Shown piece after piece: positions 36,504 to 39,309 of a DNA stretch of 44,532 nt; the stretch's first letter is position 1, and each line of letters begins with the position of its first letter. The stretch spans positions 1-44,532 of the forward strand of contig JAESPR010000064.1 of assembly GCA_016765685.1 (NCBI GenBank), in the 5' to 3' direction. The position numbers and the translations under genes are program-made. The notes below the pieces were generated by a model, which was not told where the DNA came from, made no database searches, and saw only the letters and a program-made list of their open reading frames with translations. The stretch is from Colwellia sp. (GTDB lineage Bacteria > Pseudomonadota > Gammaproteobacteria > Enterobacterales > Alteromonadaceae).

Positions 36504-36755
36504 TTATTTAAACCAAACTTTACCACCTATTATTTTATAAGCCGGTATGCCCTTAATTAGCGTTTCACGGGCAAATATTTTTTCACATTTTGGGCAGGCA
36601 CAAGCGACGTTGGTATAGTCTTGGCTAATACGCTCTTTAAAACATTTCACTAAAGCCCCTTTACCACCTTTACGATACTTAAATAGCGGCGCATTGCAAG
36701 TTTTGCAATAAATATCAACGGTTTTAATTGGGCCTTTTTTGTTAGGCTTTGCCAT
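36504..36755 (-). CDS. Small zinc-ribbon protein
   Basis: An 83-residue basic protein with two Cys pairs, CKTC (about 17-20) and CPKC (about 55-58, preceded by another Cys), forming a likely zinc ribbon. Proteins of this kind in marine gammaproteobacteria are usually annotated only as Zn-ribbon or possibly nucleic-acid binding; I do not recognise a function. The ATG at 36755 fits the basic N-terminus MAKPNKKGPIK. It lies 24 bp after the DUF924 gene on the same strand and may belong to the ftsZ-paralogue transcript. Confidence 0.75.
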   Translation of the reverse strand: MAKPNKKGPIKTVDIYCKTCNAPLFKYRKGGKGALVKCFKERISQDYTNVACACPKCEKIFARETLIKGIPAYKIIGGKVWFK

Positions 36756-36779: not shown

Positions 36780-37316
36780 TTAAAATGATGAATTAGGTTG
36801 CTTTAAAAACTCAATTTCTTCGGCAGTAGACGCTCGATTCAAAATGATATTTCGATGTGGGTAACGACCGAATTGTTTAATAATATCATAATGCTTTAAT
36901 TCAAACTGGTAACTACTGTCGACACCATTAGCTTTATACAACGGACAAGCTTGTTGATGGATTATCAACGATTCACTGTGCATAAAGGGCATATATAAAA
37001 AATTTCGTTCTATGGCATTAAGCTCTTTATCAACACCTACCGCAATAGCTTGCTGAGCTAAAACTAACGCCAATGAATCTTGCGCAAACGATTTAGCAGT
37101 GTTGCGAAAAATATTTCTAGAAAATTGATCCAAAATAATAATTTCGGCTAAACATCCCTTGGCACTATCGCGCCATGGGTATAATTCTGCTTGACTAGCT
37201 TGTTGATGAAGATCACCAAATTTTTGCTGTATGTCATTATCTAAATCATCACTTTTTTGCCACCACTGTTGGGGCGTTAATTGTTCAAACCAAAATTTTA
37301 AAATATTATTATGCAT
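36780..37316 (-). CDS. DUF924 family protein
   Basis: A 178-residue soluble helical protein of the DUF924 family (usual length 180-200). Markers: LKFWFEQLTPQQWWQKSDDL, AKGCLAEIIILDQFSRNIFR, NFLYMPFMHSES and FGRYPHRNIILNRAS. The predicted fold is TPR-like; the function is unknown. Its start overlaps the 3' end of the FtsZ-paralogue gene by 8 bp, which suggests translational coupling. Confidence 0.9.
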   Translation of the reverse strand: MHNNILKFWFEQLTPQQWWQKSDDLDNDIQQKFGDLHQQASQAELYPWRDSAKGCLAEIIILDQFSRNIFRNTAKSFAQDSLALVLAQQAIAVGVDKELNAIERNFLYMPFMHSESLIIHQQACPLYKANGVDSSYQFELKHYDIIKQFGRYPHRNIILNRASTAEEIEFLKQPNSSF

Positions 37317-38430
37317 TACTAAAGCCTAACGATTTATTTTCCCTTAACTTACGGGTAATTGCGGGAATATCCGTGTAATTTATTTCTTTATTTTCAACAA
37401 AAGCTAAACCCTCATCTAGGTAATCACCTTCTTTACGGCTCGAAACATCAATCTGATTTTGCTCAGCTAAAGCGGAGTCTATTCCCGAAGCCACAATCAA
37501 AATTTCAATTTCTGATGACAAATTAGGATCTAAAGTTACACCAGGCACGATAAGAACCGATTTGTTGGAAATTTTCTCTCTAATATGGTCGATTAGACCA
37601 TTATAAGTTGATAACTTAGGCTCCGCTTTACAAAACAATTGAAAGATAATCCCCTTAGCCGTATCAATTTTTGCGATGGAAACAAGTGGGTTATTTAGTG
37701 CTTGATTTAATGCCTCAAAGGCAAGCTCCTCGGTGTCAGCTTTACCGACACCTAAAATAGATTCTCCTTCATAAGATAAAATGCTAGAAAAGTCGTTTTT
37801 ATCAACATTAACATAACCCGTTTCTGTCAACATTTGTACTAAGGATTTAAGTAAGTTTTTCAATACTTCATTGCTTTGATTAAAAGCGGAAAACAAACCG
37901 ACACTTTCACCTAAGCCTTTTAGTAACAAATCATTAGATAAAGTAATATAAGCATGAATGGGCTCTTTAATATCAATTATCCCTTGCAGGGCAAAGTCCA
38001 TTCGTAATTTTCCTTCTGATTCAAAAGGCAAAGTGACAATAGCGATACAGTTAATATTTAGCTCTCGCGCTATTCTAGCAACCAGTGGACTTGCTCCGGT
38101 GCCGGTACCGCCGCCAAAACCGGCAGTAATGATAACTATATCACTGCCTTTTATCGCATTAGTTAATAATTCTTCACTTTCTATTGCCGCTTTTAAGCCA
38201 ACTTCTGGGTTCGATCCGGCACCATAACCTTGAGTGAGCGCTTCGCCAATTAATATTTTATTTTCAACTTGCAGTGAATTCAACGCGGCAAGATCGGTAT
38301 TAATTGCAATTAAGTTGACACTATTTGCTAAATCATTTTCATATAACATGTTAATGGTATTACAACCACAGCCACCAATACCGACCACCGTGATCAGTAA
38401 GTCTGGAGTGGCATGAATAAGTTCTTTCAT
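37309..38430 (-). CDS. Divergent FtsZ paralogue
   Basis: A 373-residue tubulin/FtsZ GTPase. The N-terminal nucleotide site reads VVGIGGCGCNTIN, then the T4 loop GFGGGTGTGASP (residues 104-115). The T7 catalytic pattern N-x-D-x-x-D is kept (N208, D210, D213 in YVNVDKNDF). Near the C-terminus NYTDIPAITRKL (351-362) matches the FtsZ C-terminal peptide (DIPAFLRK type) that binds FtsA and ZipA. The linker between the core and that peptide is short (about 35 residues) and an extra ~11 residues follow. The gene is away from any division cluster and is coupled to a DUF924 gene. The housekeeping ftsZ would be elsewhere, in the dcw cluster, so this is probably a second copy; I cannot verify that from one window. 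Confidence 0.85.
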   Translation of the reverse strand: MKELIHATPDLLITVVGIGGCGCNTINMLYENDLANSVNLIAINTDLAALNSLQVENKILIGEALTQGYGAGSNPEVGLKAAIESEELLTNAIKGSDIVIITAGFGGGTGTGASPLVARIARELNINCIAIVTLPFESEGKLRMDFALQGIIDIKEPIHAYITLSNDLLLKGLGESVGLFSAFNQSNEVLKNLLKSLVQMLTETGYVNVDKNDFSSILSYEGESILGVGKADTEELAFEALNQALNNPLVSIAKIDTAKGIIFQLFCKAEPKLSTYNGLIDHIREKISNKSVLIVPGVTLDPNLSSEIEILIVASGIDSALAEQNQIDVSSRKEGDYLDEGLAFVENKEINYTDIPAITRKLRENKSLGFSNA

Positions 38431-38886
38431 AAATATTCCTAATCGGTCATTGGATATAATTCGAATTCAAGGCGTTAAAGTACTAATACATTTCGATTTT
38501 ACTAAGAGGTTATTATAGTGTTTTTGTTATTAAACCCCATTGATCATACTTTATTATAATGATCAATTTTTTAATCTGCCACCTTAATTCAATAACTCTA
38601 GCGTTATAAATAAAACTTATTAAATATTAATTTTATTTATATCAGTTAAAACGTAGTCCCAGTGTCATTAATTTTTATTATACCAGTACATAAAGCTATA
38701 AACAGATAGTAAATAATCACTTTAATTTAAAAAGAGTTATCAGGGTTGTTGTTGCTCTTTTAGTTCAGGGTTGTTAGGGTTGTAGATATTCAACTAGAGG
38801 GTATCTTGGGGTTATTATACTGTTGACTTTTAGGGTTGCTAGGGTTATTGTTGGTTGATTGGTTTTATAAGTTACAAGGGTTAAAT
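38431..38886. other. Long AT-rich intergenic region with G-run repeats before the HicB-like gene
   Basis: 456 bp between divergent genes, with no credible coding frame. From 38743 to 38880 the plus strand carries eight runs of three or four G in otherwise AT-rich DNA. A 15-bp unit AGGGTTGTTAGGGTT (38767-38781) recurs as AGGGTTGCTAGGGTT (38832-38846). Further upstream lies a hairpin with a T-tract (38539-38572). No HicA-type toxin is found here. Confidence 0.6.
38539..38572 (+). terminator. Terminator-like hairpin without an upstream plus-strand gene
   Basis: ATTGATCAT (38539-38547) and ATGATCAAT (38559-38567) are exact inverted repeats followed by six T residues (38567-38572), a plus-strand intrinsic terminator shape, though AT-rich. 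The only gene upstream, the ftsZ paralogue, runs the other way. Confidence 0.4.
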
Positions 38887-39309
38887 ATGAACTATGCAAT
38901 TGTCTTTTCTAAGCAACAAAATTTAGCGGGTTATCAGGTGATAGTTCCTGACCTACCCGGTTGTAGTGTAAGTGTTGCAACGATAGATTTAGGATTAGAA
39001 AAAATAAGTCAAAACATCAAATCACATTTATCAATTTTGGCTGAATATGGAGAGCAGATCCCTTCGGCATTAAGTATAGATAAACATCGACAACAGTTTG
39101 CGATTGAAAACCCACACACGCATGCGCAAGCTTTTTGGGCCATTGTTGATATTAATATCACGGCGTACTTAGGTAAGAGTCACAAAATTAATGTCACTTT
39201 ACCTGAGTTATTGATCAAACAAATAGATGAGCGGGTAAGTAAAAGTTCGGCTTATAAAACCCGTTCAGGTTTTATCGCCAGTGCTTGTTTAGTAGAGTTG
39301 GGAAAGTAA
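38887..39309 (+). CDS. HicB-like antitoxin-family protein, no toxin partner visible
   Basis: A 140-residue protein with a HicB-type N-terminal domain (YQVIVPDLPGCSVSVATIDL then GLEKISQNIKSHLSILAEYG) and a C-terminal ribbon-helix-helix-like segment (KINVTLPELLIKQIDERV then AYKTRSGFIASACL). The ATG at 38887 has AAGGG upstream; a longer in-frame reading starts at 38836 but begins inside the G-run repeats. HicB normally pairs with a ~60-residue HicA mRNA interferase; none is encoded in the 450 bp upstream or the 70 bp downstream. It may be a solitary regulator. Confidence 0.8.
   Translation: MNYAIVFSKQQNLAGYQVIVPDLPGCSVSVATIDLGLEKISQNIKSHLSILAEYGEQIPSALSIDKHRQQFAIENPHTHAQAFWAIVDINITAYLGKSHKINVTLPELLIKQIDERVSKSSAYKTRSGFIASACLVELGK

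Follow-up and report, generated by a model that had tools for sequence, protein, structure and literature searches.

A second FtsZ of Colwellia belongs to a paralog family that is often paired with a WYL-type regulator and a shared palindromic site

Introduction

Bacterial FtsZ is usually seen as the product of one essential gene that is regulated post-translationally. Two FtsZ paralogs divide the labor in archaea (FtsZ1/FtsZ2) and in chloroplasts (FtsZ1/FtsZ2), and we know of no WYL regulator for either pair. In this study, we focused on a second ftsZ gene at positions 37309..38430 (-) of a 44,532-nucleotide stretch of Colwellia sp. DNA (contig JAESPR010000064.1 of assembly GCA_016765685.1; the whole stretch is hereafter called the window). 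Its product of 373 amino acids (aa), called FtsZ2 here, resembles the archaeal and chloroplast proteins in being one of two paralogs but belongs to a separate lineage. In several other lineages of the same order, the gene is paired with a gene for a WYL-type regulator, and a palindromic site lies before one or both genes. On balance, we favor the explanation that FtsZ2 is a conditionally made accessory FtsZ under this WYL regulator, and that it has been freed from the regulator in Colwellia.

The FtsZ family, FtsZ paralogs and WYL regulators are each already known. The FtsZ of the dcw cluster shares with FtsZ2 the GTPase and C-terminal domains, the GTP loop, the NxDxxD motif and, in several lineages, an FtsZ-type C-terminal peptide. 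FtsZ2 differs from it in a first-loop cysteine, a shorter linker, a non-dcw locus, its own group in the tree and, often, the WYL gene and the site. FtsZl1 and FtsZl2 are likewise FtsZ-superfamily paralogs distinct from the division FtsZ. As described by Makarova and Koonin (2010; PMC2875224), they have no recognizable FtsZ C-terminal part but instead a long additional region, either a coiled coil or about 300 aa of mixed structure, whereas FtsZ2 is compact, has the FtsZ_C domain and lacks an extra region.

Among WYL regulators, DriD is described as an activator that responds to single-stranded DNA and acts on the division regulator DidA via a 20-bp pseudo-palindrome (PMC12340889). The DriD-DidA checkpoint of Caulobacter (PMC4211646; PMC12340889) resembles the module proposed here in that a WYL regulator controls a division protein through a pseudo-palindromic site. 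However, DidA is an FtsN-binding division regulator, while the target here would be an FtsZ paralog. BrxR is a WYL regulator, often located in defense islands, whose binding sites in front of its own gene are inverted repeats separated by 5 bp (PMC9122601). The palindrome described below, which is predicted to be bound, also has a 5-bp spacer; the repeats of BrxR are 11 bp long and it regulates BREX, whereas the recurrent partner here is an FtsZ. No description of a conserved FtsZ paralog with a WYL regulator and a shared site was found among the best-ranked papers of a search of the open-licence literature.

Results

The window belongs to a metagenome-assembled genome that is 77% complete in 128 contigs, and another FtsZ is encoded on contig C111 of this genome. 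The latter gene sits in a dcw-type gene order, the same as surrounds ordinary FtsZ in two other genomes (L103 and L104), and its product is 34% identical to FtsZ2. An earlier note on the window, made from its letters, had described a second, compact FtsZ outside the division cluster, and this description held: the genome has another ftsZ, and the gene in the window is not a recent degenerate copy. The tree proposed in that note agrees. In a maximum-likelihood tree of 55 rows, the 23 housekeeping-type rows formed one group (100/99), apart from the 32 paralogs. The branching order of the deepest paralogs is unsure because the tree tool flags long branches.

Ordinary FtsZ, 33-35% identical to FtsZ2 of the window, was found in all 39 Colwellia genomes. 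FtsZ2 itself was found in 26 of them (the window's own genome included; the other copies are 69-88% identical to the window copy) and, at the cut-offs used, was not found in 13. Named carriers include C. psychrerythraea ND2E and GAB14E, C. piezophila, C. demingiae, C. echini and C. maritima, and one Colwellia genome (G022) carries FtsZ2 twice. Members with 42-70% identity occurred sporadically in other genera of the family (sample of 196 genomes), and 16 of the 394 genomes sampled from the order lay above the strict cut-off. No member of the clade was found outside the order at strict cut-offs: two class samples gave the window's own genome only (1/369 and 1/229), at cut-offs that would miss weaker relatives. 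Within the order, FtsZ2 was present in 23 of 23 genomes of genus g76 (Aeromonadaceae) and in 18 of 108 genomes of genus g19 (Pseudoalteromonas); it was not found in the other 90 at the cut-offs used. We call g19 Pseudoalteromonas because the match in its genome G1014 has the same coordinates as that in NZ_CP077771.1. Another genus, g85, is called Aeromonas because its WYL protein matches an A. caviae record at 94.5%, and g76 is placed in Aeromonadaceae because it shares the family f25 with g85.

All 23 further genomes that were checked have at least two tubulin-family genes. A profile built from 17 sequences gave 494-593 bits for the first set of paralogs, 345-434 bits for the distant members found later and at most 327 bits for housekeeping FtsZ. 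In sequence records, the Pseudoalteromonas proteins are labelled 'cell division protein FtsZ' or 'cell division FtsZ family protein'. Judged from these sequences, FtsZ2 is an old FtsZ paralog family, as sampled at strict cut-offs, of one gammaproteobacterial order. A further candidate, L099 in genome G080, was rejected as a clade member; its profile score and tree position are those of a housekeeping-type FtsZ. This locus encodes a different second FtsZ of 424 aa beside a 1390-aa protein, which by eye resembles the hybrid sensor kinase adjoining the module in L085.

The ratio of nonsynonymous to synonymous substitution rates (dN/dS) of Colwellia ftsZ2 had a median of 0.062 and a range of 0.046-0.087 (21 genes, 22 pairs). 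Three copies with unusual ends or starts (L062, L077 and L080) and the 188 of 210 pairs with dS of at least 1.5 were excluded. The gene is under purifying selection in Colwellia, and the median value indicates a maintained gene rather than a decaying copy. That the paralog is conserved is supported by its presence in 26/39 genomes and by a dN/dS of about 0.06. A recent or decaying duplicate without function would account for the two copies that are interrupted by a stop (L085:8315-9496 and L098:8598-9719). However, this explanation is next to untenable in view of the dN/dS value of the Colwellia lineage, the separate deep group and the conserved upstream block described below.

FtsZ2 starts with ATG and comprises the GTPase domain, the FtsZ C-terminal domain, a short linker, the peptide TDIPAITRK and a 12-residue tail. 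Its Pfam matches, Tubulin (141 bits) and FtsZ_C (51.5 bits), are both above the curated cut-offs. With NCBIfam TIGR00065 (ftsZ), it scored 283.1 bits, below the equivalog cut-off of 295.2, and it was therefore filed as an FtsZ paralog and not as the division FtsZ itself. The motifs that had been read earlier (GGGTGTG, GGCGCN, N208/D210/D213 and TDIPAITRK) are all present. At the positions compared with E. coli FtsZ, the GTP-loop residues, the T7 catalytic residues and most first-domain residues are unchanged; kept are G20, G22, N24, N43, D45, G106, G107, T108, G109, T132, P134, E138, R142, F182, N186, N207, D209, D212, E238 and D299. The substitutions are G21>C, G23>C, D158>H, L205>Y, M206>V, R271>K and E276>N. 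Among 20 aligned clade members, the first-loop cysteine and the residues G106, G107, G108, T109, G110, G112, N208, D210 and D213 are invariant. FtsZ2 keeps the elements for GTP binding and hydrolysis and, by homology, for polymerization. A structure predicted from 17 close sequences was of low quality (mean pLDDT 54.3) and was not used.

The C-terminal peptide was less well conserved than the earlier note had supposed. Its P and R are invariant among the 20 aligned members, some of which have DIPAF/Y-I/L-R and those of Colwellia DIPAITR. D, I, P and R of the FtsZ peptide are kept in Colwellia, but I and T replace the hydrophobic F377 and L378 of the E. coli protein.

Outside the Colwellia locus, FtsZ2 recurrently adjoins a gene for a WYL-type regulator (about 320-341 aa). 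The PADLOC WYL model matched this protein with 53 bits at L089 and 36 bits at L105, and Pfam WCX matched above the cut-off at L089 (33.6 bits) and just below it at L093 (23.5) and L105 (21.4). A profile of the WYL protein also matched WYL chains of the PDB, among them those of DriD. The N-terminus gave no Pfam helix-turn-helix (HTH) match at 0.01; a conserved QRDL-type region is HTH-like by eye only. The WYL gene is downstream and convergent at eight loci (L085, L087, L088, L089, L090, L095, L096 and L097), and upstream and co-directional at L093, L094, five named Pseudoalteromonas loci and the loci of genera g57 and g76. In g19, 17 of 18 FtsZ2 loci have it, the one without being L266; this set overlaps with the named Pseudoalteromonas loci, as the coordinates in G1014 are those of the named record of L105. 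A search of the order with the WYL protein gave matches in 53 of 394 genomes, and all 22 matches of at least 387 bits adjoin FtsZ2. Ten others scored 140-189 bits, and those of Aeromonas are considered in the Discussion. When the searches of the order and of the genus were combined, FtsZ2 lay within the 1.5-kb flank of 23 of 23 matches of at least 386 bits, G022 included. In G202, a strong WYL gene (469 bits) is not adjacent to FtsZ2 but about 14 kb away. At L090:10059-11087, the WYL gene appears split into parts of 239 and 100 aa, and the sites before both genes are still there. Besides the interrupted L098 copy, G022 has an intact second FtsZ2 at L097 with its own WYL gene and sites.

A 19-bp palindrome, TGCGACA-N5-TGTCGCA, lies before one or both genes of the pair. 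It was found by aligning the DNA upstream of WYL in g76 and Aeromonas, seen again in g57 and then scanned in all loci. Since the pattern was derived from these three sets, the counts at the convergent pairs, in g19 and in whole genomes are the independent ones. Upstream of WYL, the site was present in 12/12 g76, 8/8 Aeromonas and 7/7 g57 loci, and it also lies between WYL and FtsZ2 in six of the seven g57 loci. In the Aeromonas loci (g85, L163-L170), the WYL gene and the palindrome (0-1 mismatch) are kept as an orphan regulator. All eight convergent pairs have the site before both genes, 35-52 bp from the start and with 0-3 mismatches, and the weakest of these sites fronts the interrupted FtsZ2 of L085. 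In random 150-bp windows of the same loci (17,675 draws), sites with up to three mismatches occurred in 0.5% and with up to two in 0.27%. In g19, a form of the type TGCGTCA-N5-TGACGCA lies between WYL and FtsZ2 at 17/17 loci with WYL and is absent from the one without; the five named Pseudoalteromonas loci have the site before FtsZ2 only and none before WYL. Both genes of G202, although separated, keep the site at 45 bp with one mismatch.

In 23 whole genomes, perfect sites numbered 11: six at the pair, three at the orphan Aeromonas WYL and two elsewhere. With up to one mismatch, 50 sites were found, against 9 for a reversed control pattern, and 20 of the 50 lie at the pair or the orphan WYL. 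G141 has the most such sites (eight) of the 23 genomes. In this genome, a second, more distant WYL gene (L291:3782-4889; 103 bits) is flanked by palindromes with one and two mismatches, and L292:3226-3291 is the region of a palindrome before a gene for a 165-aa protein.

The Colwellia locus was compared in 24 copies (the window and L059-L081). In 300 bp upstream of ftsZ2, no site with fewer than four mismatches was found at the FtsZ2 loci that lack WYL (the window, the 23 other Colwellia loci, L091, L092, L127-L129 and L297); the best match in the window has seven. A LexA-type box, CTG-N10-CAG, was found in none of the 24 Colwellia loci (320 bp upstream scanned). Instead of the palindrome, the Colwellia gene has a promoter-like block, AGAGTTA ... 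TATAAT, at 38553..38599 (-) of the window, with a -10-type hexamer at 38553-38558. The sequence TATAAT[AG]A occurs upstream of ftsZ2 in all 24 loci, and AGAGTTA precedes it at a near-fixed distance in 23. In the tree, FtsZ2 of the Colwellia locus nest within the paralogs with WYL and site; L097, L086/L087, L088 and L089 branch off earlier. A close WYL gene is present in only one of the 39 genomes of the genus (G022, at its second locus). Given this nesting and this rarity, the simplest reading is that regulator and site would have been lost on the Colwellia line. FtsZ2 in Colwellia, with neither regulator nor site and with a conserved promoter instead, is probably made without the switch.

This locus also bears on the possibility that FtsZ2 is a second division FtsZ that co-polymerizes in the normal ring and tunes its dynamics, in the manner of the paired FtsZs of chloroplasts and archaea, with WYL only setting the dose. 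The kept catalytic residues are consistent with such a role, as is the Colwellia copy with its consensus -10 hexamer, its purifying selection and no WYL neighbor. However, FtsZ2 was not found in 13/39 Colwellia and 90/108 g19 genomes at the cut-offs used, interrupted copies exist (L085 and L098), and the pairing with a regulator and a shared site points to conditional use. We regard this alternative as unlikely.

Other neighbors of the Colwellia gene differ in their constancy. The earlier note had coupled ftsZ2 to a DUF924 gene at 36780..37316 (-) (Pfam DUF924, 216 bits). The 8-bp overlap of this gene with the 3' end of ftsZ2, including its stop, was confirmed, but the coupling was not: the gene lies directly downstream in 3 of 24 loci (the window, L063 and L066; Pfam run on the window copy only). 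It is therefore a local and not a conserved neighbor, and it was rejected as a functional partner. In the wider clade, the recurrent partner is the WYL-type regulator, which is absent from the window locus. Divergent from ftsZ2, a HicB-like antitoxin-family gene at 38890..39309 (+) (Pfam HicB_lk_antitox, 95.7 bits) is upstream in 24/24 loci (BLAST cluster c1), which may be simple synteny; no HicA toxin was noticed adjoining it in the window or L059-L081. A small 83-aa CxxC-containing protein at 36504..36755 (-), with no Pfam match above the cut-off, belongs to a cluster (c7) found downstream of ftsZ2 in 18 of the 24. In 11 loci (L068 and L071-L080), a gene for an EAL-domain protein of about 244-272 aa lies directly 3' of ftsZ2, that of L080 being an 81-aa remnant.

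The Pseudoalteromonas loci place the pair in a different setting. At L105-L109, on second replicons, the WYL-FtsZ pair is constant, and next to it lies a variable stretch with differing defense-type genes; in 4/5 loci, this stretch adjoins a YfhL-type ferredoxin gene. Defense-type or toxin-antitoxin genes lie within 10 kb of the pair in 5/5 annotated replicons (viperin, reverse transcriptase, McrBC, DUF262, a restriction subunit, a ring nuclease and HipA, with an integrase in 3/5), and a type I restriction methylase is near the pair at L089. These neighbors would fit an antiphage role, in which FtsZ2 serves as a decoy or resistant stand-in against FtsZ-poisoning phage proteins under a defense-type WYL regulator. 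Phages encode FtsZ inhibitors, and FtsZ together with a phage protein can reportedly trigger immunity. However, such genes were also found in 2/5 control stretches taken from these five replicons (HipA at L298; Dpt/Dnd at L302), so that the excess is modest. In g76, FtsZ2 is present in all 23 genomes searched and stands among ordinary genes in the few loci read, and we therefore did not file it as a defense system. Two FtsZ2 proteins tested gave no PADLOC match, and no clade member was seen in phage records or in a scan of viral contigs. An antiphage role seems to us improbable, about as much so as the second division FtsZ. A phage or viral origin of FtsZ2 was also rejected: 24 phage records matched, all at less than 60% identity, and 75 viral-contig loci were at most 37% identical, except two short pieces at 53-57%.

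The occurrence of FtsZ2 on Pseudoalteromonas second replicons, near integrases, would also suit a TubZ-like partition protein of chromids or mobile islands. This explanation is very improbable, because the sequence is that of an FtsZ with the FtsZ_C domain and an FtsZ-type peptide, the gene is also found on multi-megabase contigs (e.g. G183, G425 and G534), and its recurrent partner is a WYL protein.

Discussion

In this computational analysis, the explanation that we favor, at somewhat better than even confidence, is that FtsZ2 is an accessory FtsZ made conditionally, under the control of a WYL regulator from which it has escaped in Colwellia. The ancestral form would be a module of two genes, for a WYL transcription factor and FtsZ2. 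By analogy with described WYL regulators, the palindrome is probably the binding site of the WYL protein, through which this protein would control, by repression or activation, both its own gene and ftsZ2. Binding before its own gene, the FtsZ2 gene or both would set when FtsZ2 is made. Once made, FtsZ2 would supplement the ordinary Z-ring or compete with it, and division would change as a result. The likely cue, by analogy with DriD and PafBC, would be DNA damage, single-stranded DNA or phage attack. A conserved sigma70-like promoter would have taken the place of regulator and site in Colwellia.

Several observations weigh against this explanation. No WYL neighbor of FtsZ2 was seen at L091, L092 or L127-L129, and the FtsZ2 genes of these loci and of L297 have neither WYL neighbor nor site. 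In Aeromonas, the WYL protein occurs in 21 genomes (353-361 bits), with no adjacent FtsZ2 in the 8/8 loci examined, and the 1.5-kb flanks of three weaker Colwellia matches (L138-L140) contain no FtsZ gene. Of the 50 sites with up to one mismatch, 30 lie elsewhere, so the site is not confined to the module. Of eight such sites that were read, four are within unrelated genes, one (L291) precedes the more distant WYL gene, one (L292) lies 46 bp before the unrelated 165-aa gene and two (L289 and L290) are not clearly upstream of anything. The likeness to DriD is also partial: among PDB chains, the WYL profile matched those of DriD, such as 7tzv, at E 1.9e-7 but in the WCX part only, and a single WYL sequence gave nothing significant. 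No BrxR-labelled chain was among the 16 listed PDB matches of the profile. Finally, docking of the Colwellia FtsZ2 to FtsA/ZipA is doubtful, because its C-terminal peptide differs at two hydrophobic positions.

The accessory FtsZ under WYL control may also be pictured more specifically, and more tentatively, as a self-contained, mobile division switch. It is possible, though we would not wager on it, that DNA damage or phage attack releases or activates a ligand-sensing WYL protein, which then induces an FtsZ2 that replaces or poisons the Z-ring. Such a switch might halt division until repair, or allow the cell to divide despite a phage or SulA-type block of FtsZ. Colwellia would then have turned the effector into a second FtsZ that is always made, and Aeromonas would have retained only the sensor.

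A second, well-preserved FtsZ is present in many marine bacteria, and its association with its own switch protein and site in several lineages may mean that division is altered on demand. If true, free-living gammaproteobacteria would possess an alternative division polymer that is switched on transcriptionally. The lineages would provide three natural experiments: with the switch (Pseudoalteromonas, g57 and g76), without it (Colwellia) and with the switch alone (Aeromonas). They would also offer a system for asking how two FtsZ polymers in the same cell share or compete.

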